The position numbers and the translations under genes were made by a program. This document shows positions 6,284 to 22,102 of a DNA stretch of 64,000 nucleotides, piece after piece. This DNA is from Gemmatimonadota bacterium. GTDB lineage: Bacteria; JAAXHH01. Under the pieces are notes generated by a model, which worked only from the letters and a program-made list of their open reading frames with translations, searched no databases and had not been told where the DNA came from. Each line of letters opens with the position of its first letter. Within the stretch, counting starts at the first letter, position 1. Where the stretch lies: positions 1 to 64,000 of the forward strand of contig JAPPBT010000004.1 in the NCBI GenBank assembly GCA_026702745.1. The letters run 5' to 3'.

Positions 6284-9200
6284 TTACCGCCGAGGGGGGT
6301 CCCCAGGCGCGATCAGACGATAGAGGGCGGGCGTGACGAATAGGACCAGCATCGTTGAGACAGTGAGCCCACTCAAGCCCGTGTAGGATAGGCTGGTCCA
6401 GAGATCCCGCGTGGAGGGATGCCCGGCAATGAGCAGCGGCGTGAGCCCCACGAGCGTCGTCAGGGACGTGATCAGGATGGGACGAAGACGCTGTCGGCAG
6501 GCGGCTGTTATCGCTTTGTCGATGGCCTTGCCGGCTCGCTGAAGACGAGCCATGCGGTCCACGAGCAGTATCGCGTTGTTGACTACGATGCCGATCATAA
6601 AGACGGTGCCGAGATAGGCGCCGCGGTCGAAACTTAGATCGAAAAACCAGAAAACCAGGAAGATGCCGGTCAGCCCCATGGGAACCGTCAGCAGAACGAC
6701 CAACGCCCGGCGGAACGATTCGAACAGGGCCGAGGTAATCAGCAACACAAGCGCGACGGCCAGGCCGAGGGCGAAGTTCATTTCACCGCGTTCAGCCTGA
6801 TCGAAATCGGACCAGTTTGGCACGTCGATGCGGTAGCCTGGCGGTAGGTCGACCGACGCGAGGAATGATCGGCGGTAACTGTCGGCCATGCGGATGGTTC
6901 CGACGAACTCATAGGATATCCACCGCTCATACAGTTGCTCGCTGCGAAGAATGTCCGTCGAAACGCGCTTGAAAGACAGTACTCCGGCGTCCCCGGCGTT
7001 TATTCGGCGATCATCTCCGTCCAGCGGGATACGATCGAAGCCGGTGTTATGGTCCTTACTGGCGATTGTTGTTCGATAGGGCACGCGACGACCCTCTATC
7101 AGTATTTCACCATCCGGCTGGTGGCGGTCGGTGTACGGGAACAACGCCGCGCTCAGGTCGTCCAGTCCCATGCCGGCACGCGCCAGGTTCTGTTGCGACG
7201 GTTTCAATTGTAGCTCGTAATGGGGTCCGCCGCTAGTGAACCCTCCTCGGGGCGAATGGGTGATTTCGACGTTACGAACGCGACGGTGTCTTTCCAGCCT
7301 CCGTGCTAGGCGCTCGGCATGGTTCCGCAGGTCGTCGAAATTGTACCCGCGAAGCCGGTAGTTGATGGAGACGGCCCCTCCTCCCCCCGTCGAAAACCCC
7401 TGGCCGTAACCGAAGACGGCGATATCCAGTCCTCCGAACCGGGTGGCCATGTTCTCCATATCCGCTTGCATGGCGTAAGGCAACCGAGAACGGGCAATCT
7501 CGTCCATGAAGAGGGTGTGCACTCTGGCCTGCGATTCCTGTATCGTCGTGGTTACCTGGACGCCGTTGCCACCTGCAGCCAGTGCGTATCGTTCGAATGC
7601 CGCCGCCACTGAATCCACGGTGGCGGTTTCCATCCCCGGTGGGCCGTATATGGAGACATCGATATAGGTATAGGTACCGCTCCAGGAGAACGACGGTCCT
7701 TTCCACACGTCCGTAACGAAGAGATACACGCTGAGACCGAAACCGGTTAGCGTCACGGCCACGATCGGCCATCGCCACCGGATCATAAAGGTGACGACGC
7801 CTTCGTAACGCCGGCCGATGCGCGTCAGTTTCCGCGCTTCGGCCAGCGGAGCGGCGCCGCGGTCGAGCAGGCGTCCCAGCACGGGCACCCAGATGCCGGC
7901 GACGACCACGGAAGCCAGGAGCGTCAGGCCGAGACCGAGGGCGAAAGGGCCGATGTGTTGCCTCAATTCGTCGGATAGATATATGATGGGGACGAGCGCT
8001 ACGACGGTGGTCAGCGTCGTCGCTGCGACGGGAATCAGCATTTCCGTCGTGCCACGCACCGTCGCACGGTCCCGGTCCTCGCCTTCCTCGCGTCGTCGTC
8101 GGATGTTCTCATACACGACCACCGCGTTGTCCACGAGTATGCCGAAAGCCAGGGCAAGACCCGAAATGGTCAGTAGATCGAGGCCCAGCCCGAGTGCATT
8201 GAAGCAGATCATCGCACCTAATGCAGAAAGGGCGATGGTGGAGAGGAGTATGACGACCGTTCGAAATTGACGTAAAAAAAGTAAAAGCAGCACGACGATG
8301 GCGATCAGGGCGACGGACACACGCAGTGCGAGGTCCTGCAACGCCAGACGCACGTCGTCGCTGCGGTCGACGATTAGCGTCAGGACGACACCCGGCGGGA
8401 ACAGATCGCTCAGGTCCTCCATTTGCTTCTTCACGCGGTCCGCCACGTCGAGCATGTTGGTGCCGGGTTGCCTGGCGATCTCTATGGTGATCGCAGGCAG
8501 CCCGTTGACGCGGGCCACGCCGTGTGGAGTCGAGAGGGTCCACCTTATCTCGGCGAGATCGCCGAGGCGCAGTACGCGATCATGGTTCGCGGAAACGGGC
8601 AGTAGGGTGAGATTGTGCATCCCAACCGCCAGAGGCGTTGTCAACAACGGTACTGTGGCGCCCTGTCGACGGAGGGCCCCGGCGGCGTGAGATTCGACAC
8701 CGAGGCGCATGGCCCTGTGAAGATCCGTCGGAGACAGGCCTGCATTATCCATGCGGCCTGCGTCGAGCAGCAAGTCCAGTTCCTCTTCCCTGCCACCGAT
8801 GACCTCGATGTCCGAAACGCCCTCGACGGCCAGCAGCAAAGGACGGATATCCTCCAGCGCCAGTTGCCGCAGCGCATGATCAGTCACCGGTCCGGACAGG
8901 CGATAGCTCATGAAACCGTCCAGATCGCGGAAAATTTCGGGCAGTGCCTCGGATACACGTGGCCGAACGCGGGGCGGCAGGTCTGGACGCAGGGCAGCGA
9001 GTCGGTCCATGACGAGGGTGCGTGTGGCGGCGACGGAAGCGGCTGGGTCGCAGCCCGCCTGAATGCGCGCATTCCCTTCCCTGGTGACGGACCGGACTTC
9101 GAGGATGCCGGGAACGGTGGCCAGCTCCGATTCGATAGGGGCCGTCACGTGCTTGACGACGGCTTCGGAAGAGGCGCCTGGCCATTCCGCCGAGATGATG

Positions 9201-9337
9201 AGGCTTGGGTAGTCCGTGACGGGCTGCAGCGACAGGGGTAGTTGCGCGAGGGAACCGACGCCCAGCGCCAGGACGACGAGACCCGCCGCGCAGACGGCGA
9301 TGGGGCGATGGATGGCCGAGGAGAGGAGCTTGTCCAT
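6284..9337 (-). CDS. RND-family efflux transporter, inner-membrane permease
   Basis: The product is 1,017 aa, the normal length for an AcrB/HAE-type proton-driven RND pump subunit. It has an N-terminal membrane helix (about 13-30), a first large periplasmic loop to about 335, a helix bundle to about 500, a second large loop, and a closing helix bundle from about 850. The TM4 region reads GILVDNAVVVYENI, with the proton-relay Asp followed by Asn instead of the Asp-Asp pair of AcrB. Substrate cannot be predicted. It is the last gene of a minus-strand run, 86 bp after a second RND permease and an adaptor. No outer-membrane channel gene is present, so a TolC-like partner must be elsewhere if the pump is tripartite. 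Confidence 0.93.
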   Translation of the reverse strand: MDKLLSSAIHRPIAVCAAGLVVLALGVGSLAQLPLSLQPVTDYPSLIISAEWPGASSEAVVKHVTAPIESELATVPGILEVRSVTREGNARIQAGCDPAASVAATRTLVMDRLAALRPDLPPRVRPRVSEALPEIFRDLDGFMSYRLSGPVTDHALRQLALEDIRPLLLAVEGVSDIEVIGGREEELDLLLDAGRMDNAGLSPTDLHRAMRLGVESHAAGALRRQGATVPLLTTPLAVGMHNLTLLPVSANHDRVLRLGDLAEIRWTLSTPHGVARVNGLPAITIEIARQPGTNMLDVADRVKKQMEDLSDLFPPGVVLTLIVDRSDDVRLALQDLALRVSVALIAIVVLLLLFLRQFRTVVILLSTIALSALGAMICFNALGLGLDLLTISGLALAFGILVDNAVVVYENIRRRREEGEDRDRATVRGTTEMLIPVAATTLTTVVALVPIIYLSDELRQHIGPFALGLGLTLLASVVVAGIWVPVLGRLLDRGAAPLAEARKLTRIGRRYEGVVTFMIRWRWPIVAVTLTGFGLSVYLFVTDVWKGPSFSWSGTYTYIDVSIYGPPGMETATVDSVAAAFERYALAAGGNGVQVTTTIQESQARVHTLFMDEIARSRLPYAMQADMENMATRFGGLDIAVFGYGQGFSTGGGGAVSINYRLRGYNFDDLRNHAERLARRLERHRRVRNVEITHSPRGGFTSGGPHYELQLKPSQQNLARAGMGLDDLSAALFPYTDRHQPDGEILIEGRRVPYRTTIASKDHNTGFDRIPLDGDDRRINAGDAGVLSFKRVSTDILRSEQLYERWISYEFVGTIRMADSYRRSFLASVDLPPGYRIDVPNWSDFDQAERGEMNFALGLAVALVLLITSALFESFRRALVVLLTVPMGLTGIFLVFWFFDLSFDRGAYLGTVFMIGIVVNNAILLVDRMARLQRAGKAIDKAITAACRQRLRPILITSLTTLVGLTPLLIAGHPSTRDLWTSLSYTGLSGLTVSTMLVLFVTPALYRLIAPGDPPRR

Positions 9338-9423: not shown

Positions 9424-12400
9424 TCAGTTCTCGTTGGCGCGGTCCGGTCCCGCCAGCAGCCGGTACGCGAGGGGCACGACGAAAAGGGTCAGCGCGGAGC
9501 CGATGACCAGACCACCGATGAGGGTACGTGCCAGCGGAGCACCCATTTCCCCGCCCGCGCCGAACCCTACGGCCAAGGGAGCGACGCCGCAGACCGTGGT
9601 CACGGTCGTCATCAGAATCGGACGCAAGCGGCGTCGGCCGGCCTCGTGAATGGCCTCCCTGCGGGACAGGCCCTCCCTTTCGGCGCGCACGATGAAATCG
9701 ACTTTCAGAATGGCGTCATTCACCACGATGCCCACCAGTACGATAGCGCCGATCCAGGTGATGACGTTGACACTCGCCCCCCACAAGCTCAGGACGACGA
9801 CGGCGCCTGCCAGTGCCAGTGGAACAACGGCGATGATGATCCACGGAAGGCGTAGCGATTCGAACTGAGCCGCCAGGATCAGGAGGACAATCAGAATCGA
9901 GAAGGCCAGCGAGATCAGCATGGATCGGTAAGTGGTTCGCAACGTTGCCTGTGCGCCGCCGATCTCAATGTCCAGGCCGTCCGCCCGGTCGTACCTCCAT
10001 CCCGCGTCCGCCAGCAGGTCCTGTATGCGATCGGATACGCCGATCAGGTCGTCGCTGGAGATATCCGCGTTTACGATCGCCACGGGCGTCTGGTCGACGC
10101 GGTACAGTTCACCCGCGACTTCGACGGGTTCGACCGTTGCCAGCGCACGGATGGGAATCCGTCCCACCGCCGTATCAATCTGTTCGTCCATAATGGCGTG
10201 CAAGCCGGGCCGTTCCTCCTGGCTCCCGTGCACCACGATGGGTATGCGTTCATCGGTTCGGTTGAACATGGTAGCCGTCCTTCCATCCACGAAAGTACGC
10301 AACGCGTCGGCGATCTTCGCAGGTTCCACGCCGAGTTGCGCCGCGCGACGTTCATCCACTACGACGCGATAGCCCGGCCGTCCTTCGGTCCCTTGGAGGA
10401 CTACGTCAGCCAGCGGCAAACCGGACGCGGTCAACAATGACCGCAGGACGTTCGCGCCGTCTCTGGGCGGGTTTTGATGGTCGCGCCCGTCGATCCTGCG
10501 TGTGAGCACCCGGATGGACACATCGGGCTGGTTTCCGACCAGCGCCGTCGACATGGCGGTGACCGGCGGTTTCAATTCTACCTTGGTTCCCAGGCGTACC
10601 GGAATCAGCTTCCTCAAGGCCGCCATGGTCGTTCGGGCATCTGTCGCAGTCTCGTCGAGATACACCTGTATCTGCGCTCGTTCGAGTTTCGCGGTCCCCG
10701 GCGCCGTTCCCGGCACGAAGGAGGATACAGCCGCGCCCACCGTGGTCAGCGTTCCGCGCACCCCCGGGAGAGTGCGGGCGATTTCGGACAGTTCGCGCGC
10801 GGATTCCTGGGTGGCTTCCAACGATGAACCCTGCGGCAACGACAAGTCCATCCAGAACGATCCTTCATCGACTTTCGGGAAAAAGGCCCGGGGAAGGGTC
10901 CAGCCCAGGGGCACCGCGACTGCCATGAAGACCAGCAACACGACCGAAGCCCGTATGGGATGATCGATGATCGCGTCTACGGCGCGACGATACAAATCAT
11001 GGAACCTGGAAGAACGTGCAGGTTTGCGCGCCATGTCGCGCCGCATCCACCGGGCGACGAGGGTCGGGAGCAGGGTCAGTGCCACGACCCACGCGAGCAG
11101 GAGCGTCACGGTCACGGCCAGCGCCTGATCCCGGAACAGCTGTCCCGCGACGCCCGGTGCCAACGCCATCGGCAGGAAAACCGAGACAGTGGTGAGCGTA
11201 GAAGCCGCCATGGGCAGCGCCACCTCAGAAGCGCCGCGCCCCGCGGCCGAATTCGTGTCGAGGCCGGCTTCCCGGTGTCGCGCGATGTTCTCGACGGAGA
11301 TGATTGCGTTGTCCACCAGCATGCCGACTCCGAGCGCCAGACCGCCTATGGACATGATGTTCAGCCCCACGCCCAGCGTATCGAAAACAAAGAAGGAAGC
11401 GATGACGGCCACCGGCATGGCGATTGCCACGGGGATGGCGTAACGGACGTTACGGAACCAGAGAAGCAGGGCCAGGAACGCCAGCACGCCGCCGCCAGCC
11501 AATGCGGTCAGCGCGCCCTGGATGGACCTTCGAACGAAGTCGGCCTGATCGAAAGCCGCGGTCAGCGAGATGTCCGGGTATTCGGCGTTGAACCCGTCCA
11601 TCGCCCGGCGAACGTCGTCACTGGTCGTCAGCAGATTCGCGTCTGCGGTTTTCTGAATCAGGACGCCGATGGCGGGCATCCCGTCGAAGAGAACGGCTCC
11701 CAGCCGCTCGCGTTCGCCCATCTCGACTTTTGCCACGTCGCGCAAACGTATCTGTGCGGATCCGGGTTCGCGAAGCAGCACGGCTTCGCGCATCTCCTCC
11801 AAAGACTGGAAAGCTCCGTCGATCCGCAGGGCGTAGCGGTAGTTTCCGCGTCTAAGAAGACCGGCGGGCTTGTCCTGATTGTATGCCGCCAGCATCTCAT
11901 GCACGGCGTCCAGCGTCAGATCGTACGCGGAAAGACGTGCGGGGTCTATCGTGATCCGTACCTCCGGCCCCGCTCCGCCGATCACCCTGGCACGGGCGAC
12001 GCCCGGCGTCTGTTCCAGCCGGGGTCGCAGTATACGCTCTCCCACCCGTTGCAACGTGGCCAGGGACGGTCCATCTTCCCGCGACCCGGATCTGAGTGCC
12101 AGGCCCATCATAGGCGCGTTGTCCGGATCGGTGTCCAGAATCACGGGACGGTTGCTGTCCTCGGGCAGGAGAAATCGTTGCGCGTCCAGCCTTTCGCGCA
12201 CGATCAGGACCGTGTTCTTAAGATCGGCACCCCAGGTCAGCTCGACGGTTACCAGGGATTCACCCTCCCGGGAGACGGACCGTACTCGGTGTGCGCCGGG
12301 CAGGTTCCGCAACGTGGATTCTATGGGTTCGGTGATTTCGCGGGCGACCAGACCCGGCGGCGCGTTGGTCCAGGTCGTCCACACGGTGACGGCGGGGATC

Positions 12401-12522
12401 TCAAGCGGCGGCATCAAACTGACAGGAAGACGGTTCAGGGCGATAAGTCCGACGAGCACGGCGGCGCCCATCAGGCTGCATGTTGCGACGGGCCGTTGAA
12501 CGGCGAGACTGGAGAGATTCAT
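9424..12522 (-). CDS. RND-family efflux transporter, second inner-membrane permease
   Basis: The product is 1,032 aa with the same two-fold RND layout as the gene downstream but divergent in sequence, so the two are paralogues rather than a recent duplication. The TM4 region is LVDNAIISVENIARHR, and the C-terminal helix bundle has VGIVVNDAILKVDFI. The start codon follows the adaptor stop by one base (TGA-C-ATG), implying translational coupling. Having two RND permeases with one adaptor suggests a heteromeric pump like MdtBC, or two pumps sharing an adaptor; this is inference. Confidence 0.93.
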   Translation of the reverse strand: MNLSSLAVQRPVATCSLMGAAVLVGLIALNRLPVSLMPPLEIPAVTVWTTWTNAPPGLVAREITEPIESTLRNLPGAHRVRSVSREGESLVTVELTWGADLKNTVLIVRERLDAQRFLLPEDSNRPVILDTDPDNAPMMGLALRSGSREDGPSLATLQRVGERILRPRLEQTPGVARARVIGGAGPEVRITIDPARLSAYDLTLDAVHEMLAAYNQDKPAGLLRRGNYRYALRIDGAFQSLEEMREAVLLREPGSAQIRLRDVAKVEMGERERLGAVLFDGMPAIGVLIQKTADANLLTTSDDVRRAMDGFNAEYPDISLTAAFDQADFVRRSIQGALTALAGGGVLAFLALLLWFRNVRYAIPVAIAMPVAVIASFFVFDTLGVGLNIMSIGGLALGVGMLVDNAIISVENIARHREAGLDTNSAAGRGASEVALPMAASTLTTVSVFLPMALAPGVAGQLFRDQALAVTVTLLLAWVVALTLLPTLVARWMRRDMARKPARSSRFHDLYRRAVDAIIDHPIRASVVLLVFMAVAVPLGWTLPRAFFPKVDEGSFWMDLSLPQGSSLEATQESARELSEIARTLPGVRGTLTTVGAAVSSFVPGTAPGTAKLERAQIQVYLDETATDARTTMAALRKLIPVRLGTKVELKPPVTAMSTALVGNQPDVSIRVLTRRIDGRDHQNPPRDGANVLRSLLTASGLPLADVVLQGTEGRPGYRVVVDERRAAQLGVEPAKIADALRTFVDGRTATMFNRTDERIPIVVHGSQEERPGLHAIMDEQIDTAVGRIPIRALATVEPVEVAGELYRVDQTPVAIVNADISSDDLIGVSDRIQDLLADAGWRYDRADGLDIEIGGAQATLRTTYRSMLISLAFSILIVLLILAAQFESLRLPWIIIAVVPLALAGAVVVLSLWGASVNVITWIGAIVLVGIVVNDAILKVDFIVRAEREGLSRREAIHEAGRRRLRPILMTTVTTVCGVAPLAVGFGAGGEMGAPLARTLIGGLVIGSALTLFVVPLAYRLLAGPDRANEN

Positions 12523-12523
12523 G

Positions 12524-13735
12524 TCATTCTATCCTGCTCACGCGCACCGGAACGTCGTGAGCCAGCGTGACGTTTCCGGTAACGGCAACGGTATCACCTT
12601 CAGCGAGGCCGGTTGTGATTTCCTGCCAGCCATCCACCTCGCGGCCGAGGGCGACGTAGGTCCACTGGGCCCTGCCATCCCGTATACGAAAGACCAGGGG
12701 GCGTTCATCGCGGACGACGACGGCACCAGCTGGAACGACCAGCCGGTTTTCATAAAACGTACCTTCAATCCGAATCTCGGCGTACATTCCCGGTTTCAGC
12801 CGGCTGTCGGTGTTGGGAAGGTCGGCCTCAACAAAGCCCGTGCCGCTTTCCTCGTCCACCGCGGGGTACATGCGGGCGATTTTGCCTTCGAAGGACTCCT
12901 CCGGCCAGGCGGCGACCCGGACCCGTATGCCACGGCCGATTTCGACGGCGCCCAGGTCGCTTTCCAAGACGGCGGCTTTGACGCGGACACGGGACACATC
13001 CAGGAGCGTGAGGCAGGTTTCTCCGGCAGCGACCTGTTGACCTTCTTCGACAAGCCGTTCGTCGATGACGCCGGAAAAGGGAGCAAGAATGGCGGTCTGT
13101 TCCAGATTCAGCACGGCGCGCGCGTGGGCGATCTCCGCTCCGGTCAGGCCAGTGTTCTGAGCGATGAGTTCAAACCTGTGGTCTCCAGAGAGCAACTGCA
13201 CGGCTTCGTAGTCTCTACGGGCGGTCTGAAGCGCCGCAAGATCGATCTCTTCACGCTCGAAGGCCGCCTGCGCCTCATGCCAGGCAGTTCTCTTGATACG
13301 TGTCCAGGTCGTATCGGGCACTGTGACTGCGGTGGTGTCGGTGATGAAAAACGCGTACTTGTACCGGGCGTCCATGAGTGCCGAACGGGTCTCATCCACT
13401 TGGATGCGGAACCGTTCTTCTTCCAGTTTCGCCAGGAGTTGGCCTTTTTGGACGAACTCGCCCTCGCGTACTAGGACGCTTTGGATTCTGCCGCCGACCC
13501 CTGCGCTCAAGTCGGTCCGTCGTCCGGCCAGGAGACGGCCCGAGGCAACGATCGTCCTCGTCAGCGTCCTCCGGCTTGCCACCGCGGCTTCCACTGGGAA
13601 GGGTTGCATCTCGGTTACCGCCGGGACAGCCCCGGCAGGCGCGTCCGAAGAAGCGGTCGTTTCGGGCCGAAGGTAAATGACGGCCGCAACAACGGCGAGG
13701 ACGATAACGATGAGGATGGGAATGAACGTCTTCAT
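12524..13735 (-). CDS. RND efflux periplasmic adaptor (membrane fusion protein)
   Basis: The product is 403 aa. An N-terminal membrane anchor (about 4-22) leads to a barrel-sandwich hybrid/lipoyl half (SAGVGGRIQSVLVREGEFV), a helical hairpin (about 115-215), the second lipoyl half (ILAPFSGVIDERLVEEGQQV), a beta-barrel domain and a membrane-proximal domain ending VRVSRIE. This order is diagnostic of HlyD/AcrA-type adaptors that bridge an RND pump to an outer-membrane channel. It lies directly upstream of two RND permeases and 3 bp downstream of a small secreted-protein gene, so it is cotranscribed with the redox/propeller genes. Confidence 0.93.
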   Translation of the reverse strand: MKTFIPILIVIVLAVVAAVIYLRPETTASSDAPAGAVPAVTEMQPFPVEAAVASRRTLTRTIVASGRLLAGRRTDLSAGVGGRIQSVLVREGEFVQKGQLLAKLEEERFRIQVDETRSALMDARYKYAFFITDTTAVTVPDTTWTRIKRTAWHEAQAAFEREEIDLAALQTARRDYEAVQLLSGDHRFELIAQNTGLTGAEIAHARAVLNLEQTAILAPFSGVIDERLVEEGQQVAAGETCLTLLDVSRVRVKAAVLESDLGAVEIGRGIRVRVAAWPEESFEGKIARMYPAVDEESGTGFVEADLPNTDSRLKPGMYAEIRIEGTFYENRLVVPAGAVVVRDERPLVFRIRDGRAQWTYVALGREVDGWQEITTGLAEGDTVAVTGNVTLAHDVPVRVSRIE

Positions 13736-13738
13736 GAG

Positions 13739-14188
13739 TTACCCCGGATGATCGGATTCCCTCAAGAATATCATTCGATGCTCGAGGAACAACTTCCGAC
13801 GTAAGGGTTTACCGGGAGAATAAGTCAGATATCCCCCAAAGCCGCTCGTTCTTGCATACACGTGCGCGACGGGTTCGAACTGGACCCGATGCATACTGTA
13901 GTAAAACACCATTTGAACGGGACGGATTAATCTGGCCAACAAACTGGCCTTGATCGTACGCCGAGGAAAATGCACGTCACCGTCGTCATTGGTTGTCCTG
14001 GCTTGGCTGCTGTAGGTTTTTTCAAGTGCGAAATGCCGCCAATACTGCTGGACTTCTACGCCTTGCATCGGGTATCCGTCTTTATCGACCACGGTAATGC
14101 TCCAGGCGGGTACAACGGCGGACTCTACAGGATAGCCTAATACAACTGTCGCACCGATAATTACCGCAGCCGCGATGTATTTGCGCAT
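13739..14188 (-). CDS. Small secreted protein with carboxypeptidase-regulatory-like fold
   Basis: The product is 149 aa with a signal peptide (about 1-24) followed by a beta-rich region beginning AWSITVVDKDGYPMQGVEV, the pattern of a transthyretin/carboxypeptidase regulatory-like domain, with TTNDDGDVHFPRR as the next strand pair. I do not recognise the C-terminal half. The start overlaps the stop of the MauE-like gene (TAATG) and the stop is 3 bp before the adaptor, linking the redox genes upstream to the RND genes downstream. Function unknown; a periplasmic accessory is the simplest guess. Confidence 0.75.
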   Translation of the reverse strand: MRKYIAAAVIIGATVVLGYPVESAVVPAWSITVVDKDGYPMQGVEVQQYWRHFALEKTYSSQARTTNDDGDVHFPRRTIKASLLARLIRPVQMVFYYSMHRVQFEPVAHVYARTSGFGGYLTYSPGKPLRRKLFLEHRMIFLRESDHPG

Positions 14189-14646
14189 TATATTGCCTCC
14201 TTCATTGGAAGTGGTACTTGACGCGCAAAGACTAGACCTGAAGCGGCTACCAATATCAACGTATTCCGAACCAGCGCTTCGACAATGGAGACGTCTCTAA
14301 AGTCATCGTAAAATCCGAAACAACCACACGGCACGTCTGCCCCGTGATACAGCCCCCAGGCCATCGCGCCCATAAAGGACAACATCAGCAGCACTACGAT
14401 CATCGCGCTGTATCGGATCCATAACCCGATCACGAGACATAACCCGGTTGAGACTTCGATCCAGGGCAACGCAAGGGCGGCAGGGACTGCCAGCGGTTCG
14501 GGAATGAAGTCATACGACCGCACTACCTGCTCAAAGAGCTCAAATTCCGGCATCTTGGCCAGACCTGCCCAGATAAATATCCCCCCTACCACTAAACGCA
14601 GCGTTACGAGACCGATAAGAACTATACGACTATTTCCGATTGCCAT
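14188..14646 (-). CDS. MauE/DoxX-like integral membrane protein
   Basis: The product is 152 aa with four predicted membrane helices (about 8-27, 52-75, 78-98 and 122-142). After helix three it carries PCGCFG (Cys107, Cys109), the hallmark of MauE-type proteins, which are needed for disulfide-dependent assembly of periplasmic redox enzymes such as methylamine dehydrogenase. There are no mau structural genes here. With a CXXC thioredoxin-like protein three genes upstream in the same run, a role in passing reducing or oxidising equivalents across the membrane is likely but unproven. It overlaps the following gene by one base. Confidence 0.82.
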   Translation of the reverse strand: MAIGNSRIVLIGLVTLRLVVGGIFIWAGLAKMPEFELFEQVVRSYDFIPEPLAVPAALALPWIEVSTGLCLVIGLWIRYSAMIVVLLMLSFMGAMAWGLYHGADVPCGCFGFYDDFRDVSIVEALVRNTLILVAASGLVFARQVPLPMKEAI

Positions 14647-14670
14647 GATTCATCCATACCCGATTAGATT

Positions 14671-15759
14671 CTACAATGTGTCAGGAGGTTTTCTGAGCGC
14701 GTAGGTCACTACGGTGGGATTGGACGACTCGTCAGCGGGTTCAACTAACAAGTACAGAAGACCTTCCCGGGTGAAGAGCGCGCCCGGGCCTCCCATGAAT
14801 TCCGGCAGTTGAAGGCTGCCCGCGATCTGGTTCAGATCGGTATCGTACAGATCCATGAAAACGCGGGATCCTTGCGGGTCGGCGTATACCGCGCCCAGCC
14901 AATGATCGTCGATCTTAAGGAGTTGATAGAACTGGCTCCATGAACGCATATACTCATCCCGCTTTCGCATGTCGTCCAGAACCATTGCGTCGGGTGGCTC
15001 CCGCAACGGCGCGTAGAAGGGAGATTGACCCTGCGCGGTTTTTACGAGATCGCCATCGAGCGAGTATTTCCACAGGGTGTATTCGTACGGGGTCGCGACG
15101 TAGAGGAAACGACCGACCGACACGATACCGCCACCCCGGGAAGCGGCGGCGACATTGTAGTTTTCGGACTGAGGCGCAAATTCCTTGAGCGTACCGCCCT
15201 GACTGTTCAATTCGTGCACAACGTGAAGTTCGCCGCTGGTATTTACGTATCCAAAAACCCGTCCCTCGACGGTAACGTGGATACCTTCCAGTCGTGCCGA
15301 AGGAGAGAAGCTGTTCCTGAAAGCGTAGTCGCTCCCATAAATCGACACCCGCGACAGCATCATGTCGTACAGGTAGAAATCTCCATCGTGCGCGGCCGCC
15401 AATGCGAGGGGATACCGGTATTCGCCGGGGCCGTCGCCCGGGGCGCCGAGATGTTTCTTGCCGCGTCCCTTCCCGTCGAATACGTCGACGCGAGTGGTAA
15501 CGAAGTCCAGCACAATGCAATCACCATTGGACGCAACGGCGCCGATCTTTGGCAGGGGACCGAGCAGGTAGTCATCGCTCGAATCGAGATCGATCCTCGA
15601 TTCCTCCCGGAAGACATCCTCGAAAGTCAGTGGTCGTTCCTGGCTCGCGCATGCCAGCGGTCCGCACAGTCCGCATACCACAAACAGCGCGATGGCGAAA
15701 CGTGAAGCGGGACACCATCTTGTGAAGGATGGCAAGGGATTATGGTTTTTCGTGTTCAC
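14671..15759 (-). CDS. Six-bladed beta-propeller lipoprotein-like protein
   Basis: The product is about 362 aa. The N-terminus is hydrophobic and ends in GPLACAS, a lipobox-like site. The rest has repeated beta-propeller blades (for example VASNGDCIVLDFVTTRVDVF and GKGRGKKHLGAPGDGPGEY), the pattern of BF3164/NHL-type six-bladed propellers. I favour a GTG start at 15759 because GAAAGGA lies 8-9 nt upstream; an ATG at 15777 lacks such a site. It is paralogous to the protein at 16482-17633, sharing the GP-x-AC lipid site and SRGGGIV...LYV.TPYEY blades. These proteins often bind ligands or act as secreted sensors, but no specific function can be assigned. Confidence 0.8.
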   Translation of the reverse strand: MNTKNHNPLPSFTRWCPASRFAIALFVVCGLCGPLACASQERPLTFEDVFREESRIDLDSSDDYLLGPLPKIGAVASNGDCIVLDFVTTRVDVFDGKGRGKKHLGAPGDGPGEYRYPLALAAAHDGDFYLYDMMLSRVSIYGSDYAFRNSFSPSARLEGIHVTVEGRVFGYVNTSGELHVVHELNSQGGTLKEFAPQSENYNVAAASRGGGIVSVGRFLYVATPYEYTLWKYSLDGDLVKTAQGQSPFYAPLREPPDAMVLDDMRKRDEYMRSWSQFYQLLKIDDHWLGAVYADPQGSRVFMDLYDTDLNQIAGSLQLPEFMGGPGALFTREGLLYLLVEPADESSNPTVVTYALRKPPDTL

Positions 15760-15804
15760 GGTGTGATTCCTTTCCATTTCGCGTTGTGCTTCGCAGTCGT
15801 GCAA

Positions 15805-16446
15805 TCAATTCTGTGCCGCGATGGTATTCATGTAGACGCCAAGCTTCTCATAGAATGCGATGCTTCCCTGCTCGTCTTGATAATCCGAGTAATTCGCCAG
15901 TAGAACTCGATCATCACGCCCCAAGAACACGATCAAGGGGTATCTATTGTAATCGAACCTCTTTAACAGATGGGATTCGGCGTCCATTACGGCTACGTCG
16001 TGAATCCGGTACTGTTTCAGATGAGAGAGAAAATGGACCTCCTGAAGATCAGAAAAGACCATAATGGCGGTTATGTTTCTCTCCCTCAAGCGACTACGAT
16101 ACTCATTGAACAATCGAAGTTCCATGTCCAGGCAGCGGTTGCAATTCGTTCCCGTAAAATGGTACACAAGCTTATAATCGCCCGAATCTGTAAACAGGTC
16201 TCTGAACCTGGAGTTAGCGCGTTGCAATCGAGCCAGATCCGATCCTAGACTGGCGCCTTCGAGCGTATGTTCACGGATGGTCAGTTGTTCGCCTATGCTC
16301 ATGGTTACCTTGTTTTTCCACGTTCCGTTTTCGGCGGTTAACTCCGAAACTCTTTGGAACAGAACGATATTCAATGCGAGCAAGGATACAATTCCGACTA
16401 AGAGCCATCTTCGAGGTATTTCGAGACCGTACATATTTGATGACAT
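15805..16446 (-). CDS. Membrane-anchored thioredoxin-like protein
   Basis: The product is 213 aa. One N-terminal membrane helix (about 13-31) is followed by a short coiled segment and a periplasmic thioredoxin-like domain. The strand LVYHFTGT runs into Cys102-Asn-Arg-Cys105, the active-site CXXC, and later YPLIVFLGRDDRV supplies the cis-Pro strand. This layout fits a periplasmic redoxin or disulfide reductase. GAGGAGGTG lies six bases before the ATG. It lies between two beta-propeller genes and near the MauE-like gene; together they look like a redox module acting on a secreted cysteine-containing product. Confidence 0.82.
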   Translation of the reverse strand: MSSNMYGLEIPRRWLLVGIVSLLALNIVLFQRVSELTAENGTWKNKVTMSIGEQLTIREHTLEGASLGSDLARLQRANSRFRDLFTDSGDYKLVYHFTGTNCNRCLDMELRLFNEYRSRLRERNITAIMVFSDLQEVHFLSHLKQYRIHDVAVMDAESHLLKRFDYNRYPLIVFLGRDDRVLLANYSDYQDEQGSIAFYEKLGVYMNTIAAQN

Positions 16447-16481
16447 GCTGACACCTCCTCGGGGTGTTGTCTGAAATCTGC

Positions 16482-17633
16482 TTAATCTGAAAGTTTGAGC
16501 TTGTAGACGACTACAGTTGGATTAGGCAGATTCTTAACGTCCCGCGACAACACGACGGGTTCTTCGGAACGCAATAGATAGAGTCGGTCACCCCTGGAAA
16601 CGATACCCTGCGAACCACCACCAATGTGCTCGGGTAATTGCAGGTCGCCGGTAACGAAATTGAGATCGGTGTCGTAGAGATCTAAAAACACCCGACGCTC
16701 ATTGGGTTCGGCCAGGACCACTCCAATCATCTCGTCTCCTATCTTCAACAACTGTCTAATGTGGCTCCAAGTGGCGTGGTACGCTTGTCGTTTGCGGAGA
16801 TCGCTCGAGACCTCGCGCTCATCAAAGTCTGTCGATGGCGGCACGTAGTGCGACGATCTGCCCCGTACCGTTCGAATCAGTTTTCCGCCAAGATCATACT
16901 TCCGCAGTTCGTACTCATAGGGGGTGATTACGTAAAGGTGTGAGCCAAGCAGCACAATTCCTCCCCCTCTGGACTCTCCCGCGGTACTGAACTTCTCGTA
17001 TTGATCGGCGAAACTGTTACCAATCTCTCCCGACCTGGTACACTCGTAGACCACCTTGTCGGCACCCTTCCTGCTCGCGACGCCACTCGAATAGCAAAAG
17101 AAGCGGTCATCGGCTGTCACGATCATCTGACCCAGGTAAAGAGGGAGATCGACACTGCTGTTAAATTGAAAGTCTTCGTTGTATTCCTGGATTCGCAGAA
17201 GATCCCCATCATATACGTAGTACTTGCGTGTATGGTCGCTATAGTAAAGGTTATCGGGATAGAGGTACTGGTCCGCGTTCGTCCCAAGACTTCCTATCTT
17301 CGCCTTGCTTCCTCCTTCGGAGTCGAAAACAAGGATTTGTCGAACGCCGAAGTTATCCAGCACAATGAAATCGCCCTGTTCGTTTATGGCGCTGAGCCAG
17401 GGCAAAGCGCTCAGCGTGAAGCCCGAATCATTGGCAAGCGGGATCTGGCGTATTTCTGTGTACACGTCAGAAAAAGCCCGTTTATCTCCATAAGAATCGA
17501 CGAGATGGGCAATCGATGTATTGCGGGCTTCTTCCATTGAACCATGAGTACTCTGGCATGCCATTGGTCCCATGGATACCGCCATAAGCGAAAAGGACAG
17601 CATCCGTATCGTTTCTTTCAGTCTCTTGGCCAT
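16482..17633 (-). CDS. Six-bladed beta-propeller lipoprotein-like protein
   Basis: The product is 383 aa. A hydrophobic N-terminus ends in GPMACQS (putative lipidated Cys26). Repeated propeller blades follow, for example LSAINEQGDFIVLDNFG and ESRGGGIVLLGSHLYVITPY. It is a diverged paralogue of the protein at 14671-15759. A strong ribosome site (GAGGAGGG) lies 8 bases before the ATG. It is the first large gene after the 69-aa secreted peptide. A KpnI-type dyad (TGGTACC/GGTACCA, 17699-17719) lies 66 bp upstream of the start codon. Confidence 0.82.
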   Translation of the reverse strand: MAKRLKETIRMLSFSLMAVSMGPMACQSTHGSMEEARNTSIAHLVDSYGDKRAFSDVYTEIRQIPLANDSGFTLSALPWLSAINEQGDFIVLDNFGVRQILVFDSEGGSKAKIGSLGTNADQYLYPDNLYYSDHTRKYYVYDGDLLRIQEYNEDFQFNSSVDLPLYLGQMIVTADDRFFCYSSGVASRKGADKVVYECTRSGEIGNSFADQYEKFSTAGESRGGGIVLLGSHLYVITPYEYELRKYDLGGKLIRTVRGRSSHYVPPSTDFDEREVSSDLRKRQAYHATWSHIRQLLKIGDEMIGVVLAEPNERRVFLDLYDTDLNFVTGDLQLPEHIGGGSQGIVSRGDRLYLLRSEEPVVLSRDVKNLPNPTVVVYKLKLSD

Positions 17634-17665
17634 GATTGAATTCCCTCCTCACCAGGTAGTCTTTG

Positions 17666-17682
17666 ACAGTACAACCGGAAAG
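17666..17682 (+). repeat. 17-bp inverted repeat flanking the peptide gene, left arm
   Basis: ACAGTACAACCGGAAAG here is the exact reverse complement of 17983-17999. The two arms bracket the peptide gene. A second pair (17727-17742 with 18015-18030) is interleaved with this one. Confidence 0.85.
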
Positions 17683-17698
17683 TGCTCGTTTTGTAAAT

Positions 17699-17719
17699 TG
17701 GTACCAGTCTTAGGTACCA
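17699..17719. promoter_or_regulatory. Small dyad upstream of the propeller gene
   Basis: TGGTACC and GGTACCA form a 7-bp perfect stem around a 7-nt loop. No T-run follows on either strand, so it is not a convincing terminator. It may be an operator for the downstream minus-strand gene. Confidence 0.35.
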
Positions 17720-17726
17720 CCACTAC

Positions 17727-17742
17727 ACTATCGGTCAGGCGT
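17727..17742 (+). repeat. 16-bp inverted repeat flanking the peptide gene, left arm
   Basis: ACTATCGGTCAGGCGT is the exact reverse complement of 18015-18030. It lies just downstream of the peptide stop codon. Confidence 0.85.
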
Positions 17743-17750
17743 GACAACGC

Positions 17751-17960
17751 TTACGGCCATGAGTGCGCGCTGAAAGGCGTGCAGTGATGGGATGTGGAGG
17801 CCTGGCAGTGGTACACGTTATTGGCAATATGAACCCAATTGTACACCTGATTGGCTCCTGCCGGCTCCGTGGACAACGCCAGCATGCTCATTGCGCCGGC
17901 CATCGTCAATGCACCGACGAACATTACACGAGTGAAGATGCTTCTGATTGAAGTTTTCAT
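17751..17960 (-). CDS. Small secreted Cys/His/aromatic-rich peptide (unknown)
   Basis: The product is 69 aa. A signal peptide (1-36) ends in AGA before Asn37. The predicted mature part is 33 residues with two cysteines (Cys52 and Cys60), five histidines, two tryptophans and three tyrosines, including NVYHC and SHHC. AAAGGAG sits at good spacing before the ATG, supporting real translation. I recognise no family. By position it resembles Bacteroidetes small secreted precursors that sit beside six-bladed propeller lipoproteins. It leads a minus-strand run of propeller, redoxin and MauE-like genes and could be the substrate they oxidise, modify or carry. Inverted repeats of 17 and 16 bp flank it, and a TAGGG dyad lies 113 bp upstream. 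Confidence 0.65.
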   Translation of the reverse strand: MKTSIRSIFTRVMFVGALTMAGAMSMLALSTEPAGANQVYNWVHIANNVYHCQASTSHHCTPFSAHSWP

Positions 17961-17982
17961 TGCCGTGCTCCTTTCTTTGTGC

Positions 17983-17999
17983 CTTTCCGGTTGTACTGT
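17983..17999 (-). repeat. 17-bp inverted repeat flanking the peptide gene, right arm
   Basis: This is the exact inverse of 17666-17682. It lies 22 bp upstream of the peptide start codon, between the leader and the ribosome-binding site. Confidence 0.85.
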
Positions 18000-18014
18000 G
18001 CAATGAAGAAAACG

Positions 18015-18030
18015 ACGCCTGACCGATAGT
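18015..18030 (-). repeat. 16-bp inverted repeat flanking the peptide gene, right arm
   Basis: This is the exact inverse of 17727-17742. Because the order on the plus strand is A, B, gene, A', B', the two pairs interlock instead of forming one long inverted repeat. Confidence 0.85.
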
Positions 18031-18072
18031 CATCTACAGTTGTAAATTAGGAAATGGGAACCGCCAAATCTA

Positions 18073-18087
18073 TGGGGTGTAACCCTA
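18073..18087 (-). promoter_or_regulatory. TAGGG-N5-CCCTA dyad, copy 1 (variant TGGGG)
   Basis: Reads TGGGG-TGTAA-CCCTA on the plus strand. It lies 113 bp upstream of the secreted-peptide start codon. Three relatives occur at 18313, 19128 and 22088 in the same orientation. Confidence 0.6.
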
Positions 18088-18312
18088 CTTTCAACCATTT
18101 AGCATCCGATCTGACACGTAGCCTAATCAACCCACCTCCATAATCTCCTCGGTTCGTCCTCGGGTTATGGGAAATGCTCCTGGGTACCTCGATTGACCCG
18201 GGCCATGCATTCCCCGAACACCATGTCTTCCCTTTTCAGTTCCGAAGTCCTGTGAATGTATTCCCCGGAACGATCTACCCATGAATGAAAGGAAAGCCGG
18301 ATTGGATTTCCA

Positions 18313-18327
18313 TAGGGTGTATCCCTA
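18313..18327 (-). promoter_or_regulatory. TAGGG-N5-CCCTA dyad, copy 2
   Basis: Reads TAGGG-TGTAT-CCCTA, a perfect dyad, preceded by CCA as in copy 3. It lies in the 370-bp gap between the peptide gene and the response regulator. I see no gene in that gap (18040-18408); it holds copies 1 and 2 of this motif and no recognisable coding sequence. Confidence 0.6.
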
Positions 18328-18408
18328 ATTCGCTCGGTTTTTCACCGGAATCGAAAAAGGTTTATGTCGGTATTGGAGAGTGTGAGTGTTACGACGAACA
18401 GGCGGGAT

Positions 18409-19044
18409 TTACTCTTTCAAATCGATCAGACCAAGTTTGATCGCCGTACGAATCAGTTCTGGAAGGCTGTGCGTGTTGAGTTTCGCCATCAGATTTATGC
18501 GGTGGTTTTGCACGGTTTTTATACTGATTCGCATGGTTTCGGCTATTTTGGGATTGGATTGTCCCGACGCAATCAGTCGAAGGATTTCGTGCTCACGGGG
18601 AGTCAGCTGAGGTGGTGTGCCGTGTGGGTATTCGGCATACAAATAGTCGGCATGATCCATGGCCCGCGATTGGTAAGTGATACCCCTGCAAACGGTGCGT
18701 ATCGCTTTGACCAATTCCTCACTGGCCGATTTCTTGAGCACGTAGCCCTTGGCGCCGTTGTCCATCGCTTTGCGGATCAGACCGGGATCTGAATGCATCG
18801 ACAGCATGACAACCTGGGTATCTGAAAACGACGCGCGTATCCTCCTCGTCGCTTCGATACCACCGATACCGGGCATCTCAACGTCCATCACTATGACGTC
18901 CGTTCGGACTCGACGTATCGTTTCCATTGCGTCCTGGCCGTCCGTGGCCTCGGCGACGATTTGAATATCGGATTCTTTCGAGAGCAGATCCCGAAGTCCC
19001 TGACGTATCAGATGATGATCGTCTGCGATTAATACGCGTATCAT
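18409..19044 (-). CDS. NarL/FixJ-family response regulator
   Basis: The product is 211 aa. The receiver domain (1-120) has the acidic pair Asp8-Asp9, phospho-acceptor Asp54 in VIVMDVEMPG and the conserved Lys in GYVLKKS. A LuxR-type helix-turn-helix follows (about 145-205: LTPREHEILRLIASGQSNPK, then TVQNHRINLMAKLNTHS). I chose the ATG at 19044, since MIRVLIADDHH is the standard start and GGGGA lies upstream. No kinase gene is adjacent; the kinase at 22844 has its own regulator, so this one may be an orphan or share that kinase. A TAGGG dyad 84 bp upstream suggests autoregulation. Confidence 0.93.
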   Translation of the reverse strand: MIRVLIADDHHLIRQGLRDLLSKESDIQIVAEATDGQDAMETIRRVRTDVIVMDVEMPGIGGIEATRRIRASFSDTQVVMLSMHSDPGLIRKAMDNGAKGYVLKKSASEELVKAIRTVCRGITYQSRAMDHADYLYAEYPHGTPPQLTPREHEILRLIASGQSNPKIAETMRISIKTVQNHRINLMAKLNTHSLPELIRTAIKLGLIDLKE

Positions 19045-19127
19045 ATGAAATCCCCGGTCTGTCATGATGTCTGTGGCTGTTAAATCTGTCGTTTGTCGAT
19101 ATTAACTCCTAACAACATGGTTTTCCA

Positions 19128-19142
19128 TAGGGTGTTTACCTA
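19128..19142 (-). promoter_or_regulatory. TAGGG-N5-CCCTA dyad, copy 3 (variant ACCTA)
   Basis: Reads TAGGG-TGTTT-ACCTA. It lies 84 bp upstream of the response-regulator start at 19044. About 20 bases further from the gene is GTATCGAACGGTATTG, similar to the block ATCGGACGGTATCG found in the same place at copy 4. Confidence 0.6.
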
Positions 19143-19249
19143 CGGCTGGCGTTTTATAAGGTATCGAACGGTATTGAAAACTAGCGAGGTAGACTAGTAG
19201 TCTGTGGCCGACCGGATCGCCAACTAACAGGTCAAGACGACGGATTACT

Positions 19250-19357
19250 CATCACCAGTTCGATCGTAGCCGGATTTGCGTATCGTTCATTCCAGAAGGC
19301 CGGCCAGAGCGCGTCGCGTGCCAATTCAGTCACCGCATCCCATCTCGCAAGTTCAAA
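19250..19357 (-). pseudogene. GWxTD-domain protein fragment
   Basis: On the minus strand this reads FELARWDAVTELARDALWPA then FWNERYANPATIELVM. It aligns with ELATWEAATEPERDALWLA then FWNERDSNPATIENERLVE of the intact protein at 615-3071. Only about 36 codons survive, with no start and no GWxTD core, so it is a decayed copy. The rest of the 19045-19379 gap holds the dyad at 19128 and nothing else I recognise. Confidence 0.82.
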
Positions 19358-19379
19358 ACGAAAAGTAAACTGCTCGAAC

Positions 19380-21785
19380 TCACTCGGATTGCAACGCATC
19401 TACCGGATTGGCTGTAGCCGCCGTGATTACCTGGTATCCGTTTGTGAGCCAGGCTATAACCAAAGTAACGAAGCCCGAGAAGACAAATACCCATACGTCC
19501 ATTTCGATGCGGTAAGCAAAATCCTCAAGCCAGGCCTGTAATCCGAAGTAACCTATCGGGGTACCTATAACAAACGCCACGAGGATGAGCATCGTAAGAT
19601 CTTTCGACATCAATAAGACTATACTCGTTATCGAGGCGCCAACGACCTTGCGAACGCCTATCTCCTTGGTCCTCTGTTCTGCCATAAAGGAAGAAAGACC
19701 CAGGAGTCCCAGGCAAGCGATGAGTATGGAAAGCGTTGCACCGGCGCTAAAGACGGAACCCAGTCTTTGTTCGGCATGGTAGAGTTGGTCGAGGTTTTCA
19801 TCAAGAAACGAGAAATCCATGGAAGGATGTTCCGGATATGTCCGCCCCCACTGATCCTTCAGGATTTCAAGTCCACGGGATTCGGCGTTCCCTTCCAACC
19901 TTACAGCCACATGCGAATGTGACCAAGGTGAAGCCATGATCATCAGCGGCTCGATGGGTTGGTGCAACGACTGATCGTGGAAATCGGCAATCATGCCGGT
20001 GACTTCGATAGGCGGACTGAAACCGCGCGGACCTGGGTATCTGAACGTCTTTCCAATTGGATCGTCCCAACCGAAGGCCCTTGCGGCCGCTTCATTGATC
20101 AGGATGGAGTTAGCGTCAGAAGGGTGATCGCGTGAGAACGCACGGCCTGATTTCACCTCGATGCCCAGCGTTTCGATGTAATCAAAGTCCGCCCATATCG
20201 TTCGGACCGATACATTCTGATCCTCCTTGAATCCTTCAGGTTGGATCACACTGAGGTCCGCTTCATATCCTGGTACGCTGGAGGCTGAACTCACGTTTAA
20301 AACTTCAGGATATTGCAGGATTGCGTTCTTAAAGGCCGGATATCGTTGTAAGGCTTCAGGATCGGGCAAACGAACCACAACCACGTTTTCTTCATCGAAT
20401 CCCAGGTTTTTATTCTGCATGTACTCCAACTGATCAAGGACAACGACTGTCCCCACGATCATGACAATCGAGACGACAAACTGGAAGACAATAAGCAGTT
20501 TCCGAAGTGATGAATAGGAAGCTCCCGCTTTCAATGCACCGGTCAGCACGGCAACTGGCTTGAAGGACGAAAGTACAAAAGAGGGATACCCGCCGGCGAC
20601 AATCCCCGTAGCAATGGCGATGGATATCAGTGTAGGCACAAACCAGGTTGAATCGTAATTGATCTCCAGCGTCTTGCCCGATAAATGATTGAACTGGGGC
20701 AGGAAAAGATGAACCAGACCCAATGCCACAATCAATGCGATCAGGGAATACAGGATCGACTCACCCATGAACTGTGAAATCAGCTGGTTCCGCTTTACGC
20801 CCAGTACCTTCCGAATGCCGATTTCCTGCGCCCTCCGGGCAGAACGGGCGGTGGAGAGGTTCATGAAGTTGACACAGGCTATCAGCAGCACAAAGGCGGC
20901 CAATGTGGAGAATATGTAGACATACGTGATCTTGCCGTTTGATTCAAACTCACCGATAAGATCCGAATGAAGATGTATTTCGGTGAGAGGCTGAAAGAAA
21001 GGGGTCATTGCAATGCCAAGCGTTTCCAGTCGCTCGCTGAGATGTTGGTCCAGGAATCCAGGCAGTTTACGCTCCAGGTCTTCAGGCGCTGCGACATTGC
21101 GAAGTAGTATATAGGTAAACACGGAACTGTAATGGTTCTGCATCGTGGACGGTTCGTCATACAACCGGTTCGGCGCAAGTGATGCGTAGGAAGCCAGAAA
21201 ATCGAAATGAAAATGTGAGTTATCCGGTAAATCCCGCATGATTCCGGTAACGCTGAACTCATATTTGTCATCGCCGGTGATTACTTTTCCGATTGGGTTT
21301 TCGTCCCCGAAGTACTTTTGCGCCATGGATTCAGACAGTACGACGGAATGAGGTTCGGTCAGGGCGGTATTGGCGTTGCCCTGCACAAGGGGCATGGTGA
21401 AAATGTCAAAGACCGTTGAATCTGCGAACACTAAATTTGCTTCATAAAACCGTTTTTCCCCGTATCGAATCAACCAACGGGATGCGGGCGGCCTGATCCG
21501 CGTAATCGCTTCGATTTCAGGATATTCCTGCGCCAATGCCGGACCCCATGCCGGTGGCGATTTCGCCCATACATCGAGTCTTCCTTCTGCGGTTTCGGAA
21601 ACCGCCAGACGGTATATCCGATCTTTGTTCTGATGGTACTGGTCATAACTGAGCTCGTCATGCACGTAGAGTACGATCAAAACACATCCGGCTATTCCTA
21701 TGGCAAGCCCCAGTACGTTGATAAGCGAATAACCTTTGTACCTTAGCAGAAGCCTGATACCGATGGTCAGATAGTTGTTGAACAT
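19380..21785 (-). CDS. FtsX/MacB-family ABC transporter permease
   Basis: The product is 801 aa. It has the two-repeat layout of FtsX-like permeases common in Bacteroidetes relatives: an N-terminal helix (about 20-40, LINVLGLAIGIAGCVLIVLY), a MacB-type periplasmic domain (about 50-260), a three-helix FtsX block (about 285-405), then a second periplasmic domain and a second FtsX block (about 670-790). TARSARRAQEIGIRKVLG and EQRTKEIGVRKVVGA are the characteristic cytoplasmic coupling sequences. CGGAGGT precedes the ATG. Such permeases need a LolD/MacB-type ATPase for lipoprotein, peptide or drug export or mechanotransmission; here the upstream ATPase is only a remnant (21834-21998), so activity would require an ATPase from elsewhere. 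Confidence 0.92.
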   Translation of the reverse strand: MFNNYLTIGIRLLLRYKGYSLINVLGLAIGIAGCVLIVLYVHDELSYDQYHQNKDRIYRLAVSETAEGRLDVWAKSPPAWGPALAQEYPEIEAITRIRPPASRWLIRYGEKRFYEANLVFADSTVFDIFTMPLVQGNANTALTEPHSVVLSESMAQKYFGDENPIGKVITGDDKYEFSVTGIMRDLPDNSHFHFDFLASYASLAPNRLYDEPSTMQNHYSSVFTYILLRNVAAPEDLERKLPGFLDQHLSERLETLGIAMTPFFQPLTEIHLHSDLIGEFESNGKITYVYIFSTLAAFVLLIACVNFMNLSTARSARRAQEIGIRKVLGVKRNQLISQFMGESILYSLIALIVALGLVHLFLPQFNHLSGKTLEINYDSTWFVPTLISIAIATGIVAGGYPSFVLSSFKPVAVLTGALKAGASYSSLRKLLIVFQFVVSIVMIVGTVVVLDQLEYMQNKNLGFDEENVVVVRLPDPEALQRYPAFKNAILQYPEVLNVSSASSVPGYEADLSVIQPEGFKEDQNVSVRTIWADFDYIETLGIEVKSGRAFSRDHPSDANSILINEAAARAFGWDDPIGKTFRYPGPRGFSPPIEVTGMIADFHDQSLHQPIEPLMIMASPWSHSHVAVRLEGNAESRGLEILKDQWGRTYPEHPSMDFSFLDENLDQLYHAEQRLGSVFSAGATLSILIACLGLLGLSSFMAEQRTKEIGVRKVVGASITSIVLLMSKDLTMLILVAFVIGTPIGYFGLQAWLEDFAYRIEMDVWVFVFSGFVTLVIAWLTNGYQVITAATANPVDALQSE

Positions 21786-21833
21786 GGTTATGACCTCCGT
21801 TCAGGTCAATGCGCACGAGTTACGCGTCCCCGT

Positions 21834-21998
21834 TCATGCGGCTTCCTTCACGATGCGCCCGTCGAAGAGGCGGATGATCCGGTGGTCTTGGTCGGCCAGG
21901 ATCAGCCTGAGATTCCCGATGACTGCCCACGCCACGGCCACGCGCTCCTGCTTGGACGTGTCCAGGTAAATCTGGGGCAGCTTGATGTTCTCGTACAC
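21834..21998 (-). pseudogene. MacB-type ABC ATPase with internal deletion (remnant)
   Basis: The minus-strand frame reads VYENIKLPQIYLDTSKQERV, AVAWAVIGNLRLILAD, then jumps to QDHRIIRLFDGRIVKEAA and a stop. The first part corresponds to the signature-to-Walker-B region (normally RVAIARALxxxPxLILADEPT) and the second to the extreme C-terminus. The D-loop, H-loop and all sequence before the signature are missing. It lies just upstream of the intact FtsX-type permease and would have been its partner. Its ending resembles the remnant at 6063-6240. Confidence 0.8.
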
Positions 21999-22087
21999 AG
22001 TTGATATTCGTGATCCCCTCTTAAGGTCGTTTCATGACGATATCCAGCTTCTGCTTAATACTTAACACCGATAAAGAGCATTATCCG

Positions 22088-22102
22088 TAGGGTGTTTCCC
22101 TA
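22088..22102 (-). promoter_or_regulatory. TAGGG-N5-CCCTA dyad, copy 4
   Basis: Reads TAGGG-TGTTT-CCCTA, a perfect dyad, preceded by TCCG. It lies about 90 bp upstream of the ABC remnant and permease genes. ATCGGACGGTATCG follows on the plus strand about 10 bases later, as at copy 3. Confidence 0.6.

Follow-up and report, generated by a model that had tools for sequence, protein, structure and literature searches.

A candidate peptide maturation-and-handling operon combining MauE, redoxin, propeller, and RND genes in a Gemmatimonadota bacterium, with counterparts in other phyla

In the maturation of methylamine dehydrogenase, MauE (PF07291) and its thioredoxin-like partner MauD adjoin a secreted cysteine-containing product, and it has been speculated that MauE introduces disulfides into the beta subunit (PMC7794033). 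MauE also appears in candidate families of ribosomally synthesized and post-translationally modified peptides (RiPPs) proposed by decRiPPter in Streptomyces, where it lies (in one family together with MauD) next to short precursors that contain eight or more cysteines (PMC7794033). Bufferins and the HvfX-type MNIO RiPPs are Sec-exported cysteine peptides paired with a DoxX-family membrane protein (PMC12452194). We describe here a run of genes from an uncultured Gemmatimonadota bacterium (the first 64,000 nucleotides of contig JAPPBT010000004.1, assembly GCA_026702745.1, henceforth the window) that combines a MauE gene and a gene for a membrane-anchored redoxin with a 69-residue exported peptide precursor, two propeller lipoproteins, and pumps of the resistance-nodulation-division (RND) type. 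Since at least two other phyla possess this unusual combination as well, it looks like a real and so far undescribed system, better supported than one locus alone would allow, and we favor reading it, with a probability of about 0.5, as an operon for the maturation and handling of the peptide.

The genes are tightly packed on the minus strand from 6284 to 17960 in the order peptide, propeller 2, redoxin, propeller 1, MauE, a 149-residue secreted protein, RND adaptor, and two RND pumps. Gaps between genes are mostly 0 to 35 nt, the exceptions being 118 nt after the peptide gene and 87 nt between the pumps; no terminator was found between the peptide gene and propeller 2, and the folding energy there is not unusual. 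A first-pass annotation of positions 13739 to 18030 had named these same parts, and every one of them was confirmed on this strand, the adaptor and the pumps lying outside those positions. The peptide gene is preceded by a good Shine-Dalgarno sequence (GAAAGGAG). A site of the signal peptidase I type after AGA predicts cleavage between STEPAGA and NQVYNWVHIANNVYHCQASTSHHCTPFSAHSWP, giving a mature peptide of 33 residues with two cysteines (C-X7-C), five histidines, and five aromatic residues, a composition that reproduces what had been noticed at first pass.

The same annotation had grouped the peptide with the propellers, the redoxin, and MauE, and the other phyla bear this out, for there too short exported cysteine peptides adjoin propellers. 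One such locus, L107, was found by a MauE search of diverse genomes, most of whose MauE loci adjoin rhodanese genes. It lies in genome G359, which belongs to the same genus as a Calditrichota genome, and reads MauE, two short exported cysteine peptides, propeller lipoprotein, MauE, peptide, propeller, broken MauE, peptide (with a disrupted start), propeller; downstream of this array come an O-antigen-ligase-like gene and then an RND adaptor and pump (L155). In Calditrichota, L141 has MauE, peptide, propeller, adaptor, and RND, while L198 (genome G230) has MauE, peptide, propeller, CXXC redoxin, propellers, RND, adaptor, and RND. A search for the same gene order elsewhere had been suggested at first pass, and in L198 the peptide-propeller-redoxin order is identical to that of the window. 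The mature peptides of the two loci are both 33 residues long, with C-X6-C in L198 where the window has C-X7-C, a resemblance for which we do not claim homology. The peptide-propeller-redoxin trio appears again in the same genome at a contig end (L199), and L200 has peptide and propeller. A third phylum is represented by L246 (genome G335, outside both the window's and the Calditrichota genome sets), where propeller, peptide, and MauE occur in that order twice and the mature peptides contain 10 and 11 cysteines. Cysteine is common to all these peptides but histidine is not, there being none in the mature peptide of L198. In L247, a propeller adjoins a protein in which MauE and redoxin are fused, which argues that the two work together.

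Short exported peptides were sought with a detector that demands a Shine-Dalgarno sequence, a signal peptide, an A-X-A site, at least two cysteines within 15 to 70 mature residues, and no overlap with large frames. It gave seven matches in 50.5 kb of loci with both MauE and propellers, none in 584 kb representing 84 MauE loci without propellers, and, in the 211 kb of remaining propeller loci, four, of which three are the peptides of L199/L194 and L200. Counted by locus with the window excluded, and over loci that do not form a random sample, a match was present in four of five MauE-plus-propeller loci versus none of the 84 MauE-only loci (p = 2e-6).

Judging from sequence divergence, the Calditrichota peptides are under purifying selection. 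The mature parts of the two G230 peptides show nonsynonymous divergence (dN) of 0.08 with synonymous divergence (dS) saturated (many synonymous differences, few others), and the G359/G390 pair shows a mature dN of 0.25, again with dS saturated. Among the paralogous peptides within G359, dN is 0.09 in the leader versus 0.69 in the mature part. In the tandem copies of G359, MauE is 94% identical and the propellers 27 to 30%, and in those of L246 MauE is 78% identical versus 50% for the propellers. It seems from such comparisons that specificity lies in the peptide and the propeller, and maturation in MauE. Tandem copies with conserved leaders and variable cores suggest a peptide that diversifies together with a receptor or an immunity protein, and the divergence pattern alone would be compatible with a pair of the bacteriocin-immunity type.

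Several observations were made along the way. At about 8240 to 8430 of L107, the third MauE copy is interrupted by stops and the next peptide has no normal start, a case of cassette decay. In L198 and L199, translated stretches such as RITRMNTNK recur in non-genic frames, which suggests an interspersed repeat in G230. Genome G344 has many solitary propellers and, at 5627 to 7326 of L090, a MauE-rhodanese fusion, a 213-residue anchored protein that lacks a CXXC motif, and a short exported cysteine peptide running off the contig. Some candidates were set aside. Apart from the Calditrichota contigs L157 and L158 and a rhodanese-linked MauE (L156), a scan of genome contigs for MauE returned mostly BT_3928-type DoxX proteins of Bacteroidota without the cassette. 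A viral match to the redoxin (L047) is a chance similarity in a phage tail gene, and L003 and L056 are generic TlpA proteins. Plasmids gave no redoxin or propeller match, and a propeller profile search of eight Bacteroidota genomes found nothing.

The individual proteins can be placed with differing certainty. Both propellers belong to PF17170 (DUF5128), with E values of 1e-9 for propeller 2 and 3e-11 for propeller 1, and the two scores, 43.5 and 38.6 bits, exceed the cut-off of 22.9; both carry lipoboxes, and they are 41% identical to each other. The AlphaFold model of propeller 1 (overall predicted local distance difference test score, pLDDT, 82) is confident from about residue 60 on, and the true start is probably downstream of the TTG. 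The closest solved folds are NHL propellers and the BF0058-type exported propeller of Bacteroides fragilis (PDB 4raa; TM 0.61, yet 13% identity), for which we know of no peptide partner. Propeller 2 has two cysteines besides that of its lipobox, but propeller cysteines are not conserved across the set compared. MauE is well above the PF07291 cut-off of 27 bits and well below that of the HvfX profile NF050144 (26.6 bits versus 80). The thioredoxin likeness of the redoxin is weak (PF13905, E 0.011; the top six PDB matches all ResA, E 0.06 to 0.11), and since its model is poor, assignment of the fold relies on those ResA matches and on the alignment of its CXXC, within the motif CNRC, with that of the redoxins of L198, L199, and L247.

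Comparison within the phylum (16 genomes, 12 of them in the genus) separates the operon into two parts. Propeller 1, the adaptor, several further propellers, and two RND pumps are kept in five congeners (G003, G006, G008, G009, and G010), some of whose propeller-RND arrays are interrupted by contig ends. In two of these arrays (L048, 8354 to 13503; L049, 3570 to 8547), about five periplasmic propellers stand in tandem between adaptor and RND, without peptides. Redoxin and MauE are both absent from all 11 congeners searched, and the detector found no exported cysteine peptide in 84 kb of congener arrays. Moreover, the GC fraction, about 0.64 in the pump genes, declines to about 0.50 in the stretch from roughly 15 to 25.5 kb before rising again. 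Because no congener has redoxin or MauE, none was found with the peptide, and GC drops, peptide, redoxin, and MauE can be regarded as a single accessory set, which was probably acquired together with the neighboring two-component and FtsX genes. Besides the accessory genes, the low-GC stretch from 13700 to 25500 (minimum about 0.50 versus 0.6 to 0.66 in most of the rest) contains a PDZ histidine kinase, two response regulators, and an FtsX/MacB-like permease, and it is possibly an acquired island.

The accessory set appears to share a signal with the propeller-RND operon. The palindrome TAGGG-N5-CCCTA, a candidate site for a regulator, stands in exact or near copy twice upstream of the peptide gene and once each upstream of a response regulator gene and of the FtsX-like gene (Table 1). 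A search with TAGGGNNACACCC, one mismatch allowed, gave four matches against 0.81 expected, a number reached in none of 100 shuffles. In three congeners (L048, L049, and L050), though not in L052 or L054, the palindrome also immediately precedes propeller 1. As it is common to both, the peptide seems to belong to the regulon of the ancestral propeller-RND operon.

Table 1. Genes of the operon, its candidate regulator, and copies of the palindrome in the window
Feature	Position	Strand	Basis or remark
RND permease 2	6284..9337	-	62% identity to congener (G003)
RND permease 1, multidrug-type rather than CusA-type	9424..12522	-	NF033617, 602 bits, versus TIGR00914, 374 bits, both below family cut-offs; 66% identity to congener (G008)
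RND periplasmic adaptor	12524..13735	-	TIGR01730, 206.6 bits; 56% identity to congener (G008)
149-aa secreted protein	13739..14188	-	Weak DUF6795 resemblance, below cut-off; no confident family in family scan; overlaps MauE stop
MauE, four transmembrane segments, Cys-Gly-Cys	14188..14646	-	PF07291, 94.9 bits
Propeller lipoprotein 1, PF17170, orthologue of genus operon gene	14671..15804	-	Profile; AlphaFold six-bladed propeller, best PDB match 4raa; 48% identity to congener (G008)
Redoxin, membrane-anchored, CXXC (CNRC), ResA/TlpA-like	15805..16446	-	Weak PF13905, weak ResA; CXXC alignment with L198/L199/L247
Propeller lipoprotein 2, six-bladed, PF17170	16482..17633	-	Profile match; 41% identical to propeller 1
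Exported Cys/His peptide precursor, 69 aa	17751..17960	-	Shine-Dalgarno and open reading frame; sole detector match in window; single copy in genome
Palindrome copy, 113 nt upstream of peptide start	18073..18087	-	TAGGGTTACACCCCA
Palindrome copy upstream of peptide gene	18313..18327	-	TAGGGATACACCCTA
NarL/LuxR-type response regulator, candidate operon regulator	18409..19065	-	Response_reg and GerE
Palindrome copy upstream of LuxR-type response regulator	19128..19142	-	TAGGTAAACACCCTA
Palindrome copy upstream of FtsX/MacB-like permease gene	22088..22102	-	TAGGGAAACACCCTA

Two neighboring features may be added. A 54-residue frame at 21834 to 21998 on the minus strand, directly upstream of the FtsX-like permease, resembles what is left of the C-terminal end of an ABC ATPase; the ATPase may be truncated. 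On the other side, a DNA N6/N4 methylase gene (PF01555; 3730 to 4881, minus strand) lies beside the RND genes.

The genes, their recurrence in three phyla, the selection apparent in the Calditrichota peptides, and the common palindrome, all read from sequence, suggest how the operon might work. Sec would export the precursor, and cleavage by signal peptidase I would leave a 33-residue peptide in the periplasm. There the anchored redoxin would join the two cysteines and be re-oxidized by MauE, in a relay like that of MauD and MauE; we judge such oxidation likely. The disulfide-bearing peptide would pair with its cognate propeller, a lipoprotein that would serve as receptor, as chaperone, or as immunity protein; the pairing is plausible, with chances that we consider somewhat better than even. 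The adaptor and two pumps would then carry the peptide across the outer membrane with a TolC-type channel encoded elsewhere, though to this transport we give only tentative credence. The NarL-type two-component regulator would probably drive the operon by way of the palindrome. Such loci might even form a new class spanning several phyla, of peptides oxidized by a dedicated redoxin and MauE, recognized by their own propellers, and expelled by dedicated RND pumps, with the diversifying pairs serving as signals or antagonists, but so complete a picture strikes us as rather unlikely.

Several observations weigh against reading the run as a peptide maturation-and-handling operon. Five congeners have propellers and RND without the peptide, and no RND gene lies within 14 kb of the L246 peptides; the pump may therefore have another role. 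The first-pass annotation had the peptide matured, bound by the propellers, and moved by the pump: the parts do associate, but propeller binding and RND transport remain putative. That annotation also held that loss of the small gene where the gene order is kept would tell against it. No such loss was seen among the order-keeping loci, but L247 has no detectable peptide. The model of the redoxin is of low confidence (pLDDT 43) and has no fold match in the PDB, and the detector had been loosened once, after a first version missed peptides already seen. Finally, the window peptide has no sequence homologue in the genomes searched and no family in Pfam or NCBIfam, and the selection estimates therefore cover the Calditrichota peptides and not this one. 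Perhaps, then, the 69-residue frame is no gene at all, but its Shine-Dalgarno sequence, its signal peptide, its position matching that of L198, and the absence of any other such frame from the 64 kb and of any at all from 668 kb of control loci (MauE-only loci and congener arrays) make this very improbable.

The propellers and RND genes might instead be a separate operon for small-molecule efflux or sensing, with peptide, redoxin, and MauE as neighboring cargo sharing its promoter region and the peptide staying in the periplasm or at the surface, or leaving without RND. The congeners' operons lacking all three accessory genes, the L246 peptides, the propeller-RND linkage without a peptide in L248 and L252 also, and the fall in GC from the pumps to the peptide, propeller 2, and redoxin would fit such an arrangement; yet peptide and RND share one run in the window, L107/L155, L141, and L198, and the palindrome joins the peptide's upstream region to the congeners' pump operon, so we regard it as possible but rather doubtful. 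Two cysteines and five histidines in 33 residues could also bind copper or another metal in the periplasm, with redoxin and MauE keeping the thiols reduced and RND exporting the metal. The adaptor contains a CusB/HlyD barrel-sandwich domain, and bufferins, often accompanied by DoxX partners, are Sec-exported copper-chelating cysteine peptides (PMC12452194). Against a metal peptide, however, stand the histidine content, which is not conserved, permease 1, which scores far better as a multidrug-type pump than as CusA, and the operon itself, in which a profile scan found neither an MNIO nor a DUF2282 gene; we consider the idea improbable. Redoxin and MauE might otherwise serve the propellers or another secreted protein, with the peptide a bystander, as L247 and the extra cysteines of propeller 2 could suggest; since propeller cysteines are not conserved across the set and exported cysteine peptides are concentrated in MauE loci with propellers and absent from those without, this too has little chance of being right.

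If the peptide maturation-and-handling reading is correct, MauE gains a function outside methylamine metabolism, as does part of the large uncharacterized DUF5128 propeller family, and there are named secreted peptides to be tested in Calditrichota and in uncultured phyla. We know of no precedent for RND export of a ribosomal peptide, and such a substrate would be new. Among described systems, NVEALA proteins of Bacteroides (PF14055) are likewise made as short exported precursors and are associated with propellers, but none was found in the 384 genomes searched, and the window peptide and nine related peptides gave no PF14055 match at E ≤ 5. A literature search on NVEALA, DUF5128, or the composite system returned nothing relevant. 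The hetero-RND multidrug pumps of the MdtABC type similarly combine one adaptor with two RND permeases; the pumps of the window differ in being embedded with propellers and a peptide, and they score below the MdtB and MdtC cut-offs. Bufferins require an MNIO enzyme and a DUF2063 partner, whereas neither MNIO (DUF692) nor DUF2063 is among the scanned operon and flanking proteins. The decRiPPter mauE families are actinobacterial and computational candidates, the text of the paper does not mention propellers, and the window peptide has two cysteines where theirs have many more; as far as the text of the papers shows, neither they nor bufferins carry the propeller-redoxin-RND set. As for methylamine dehydrogenase, the operon, whose scanned genes are those for propellers, redoxin, MauE, adaptor, and RND, contains neither mauA, mauB, nor any other mau gene. 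It differs from the MauD/MauE system also in adding propellers and RND pumps, and in that its substrate would be a peptide of 33 residues.

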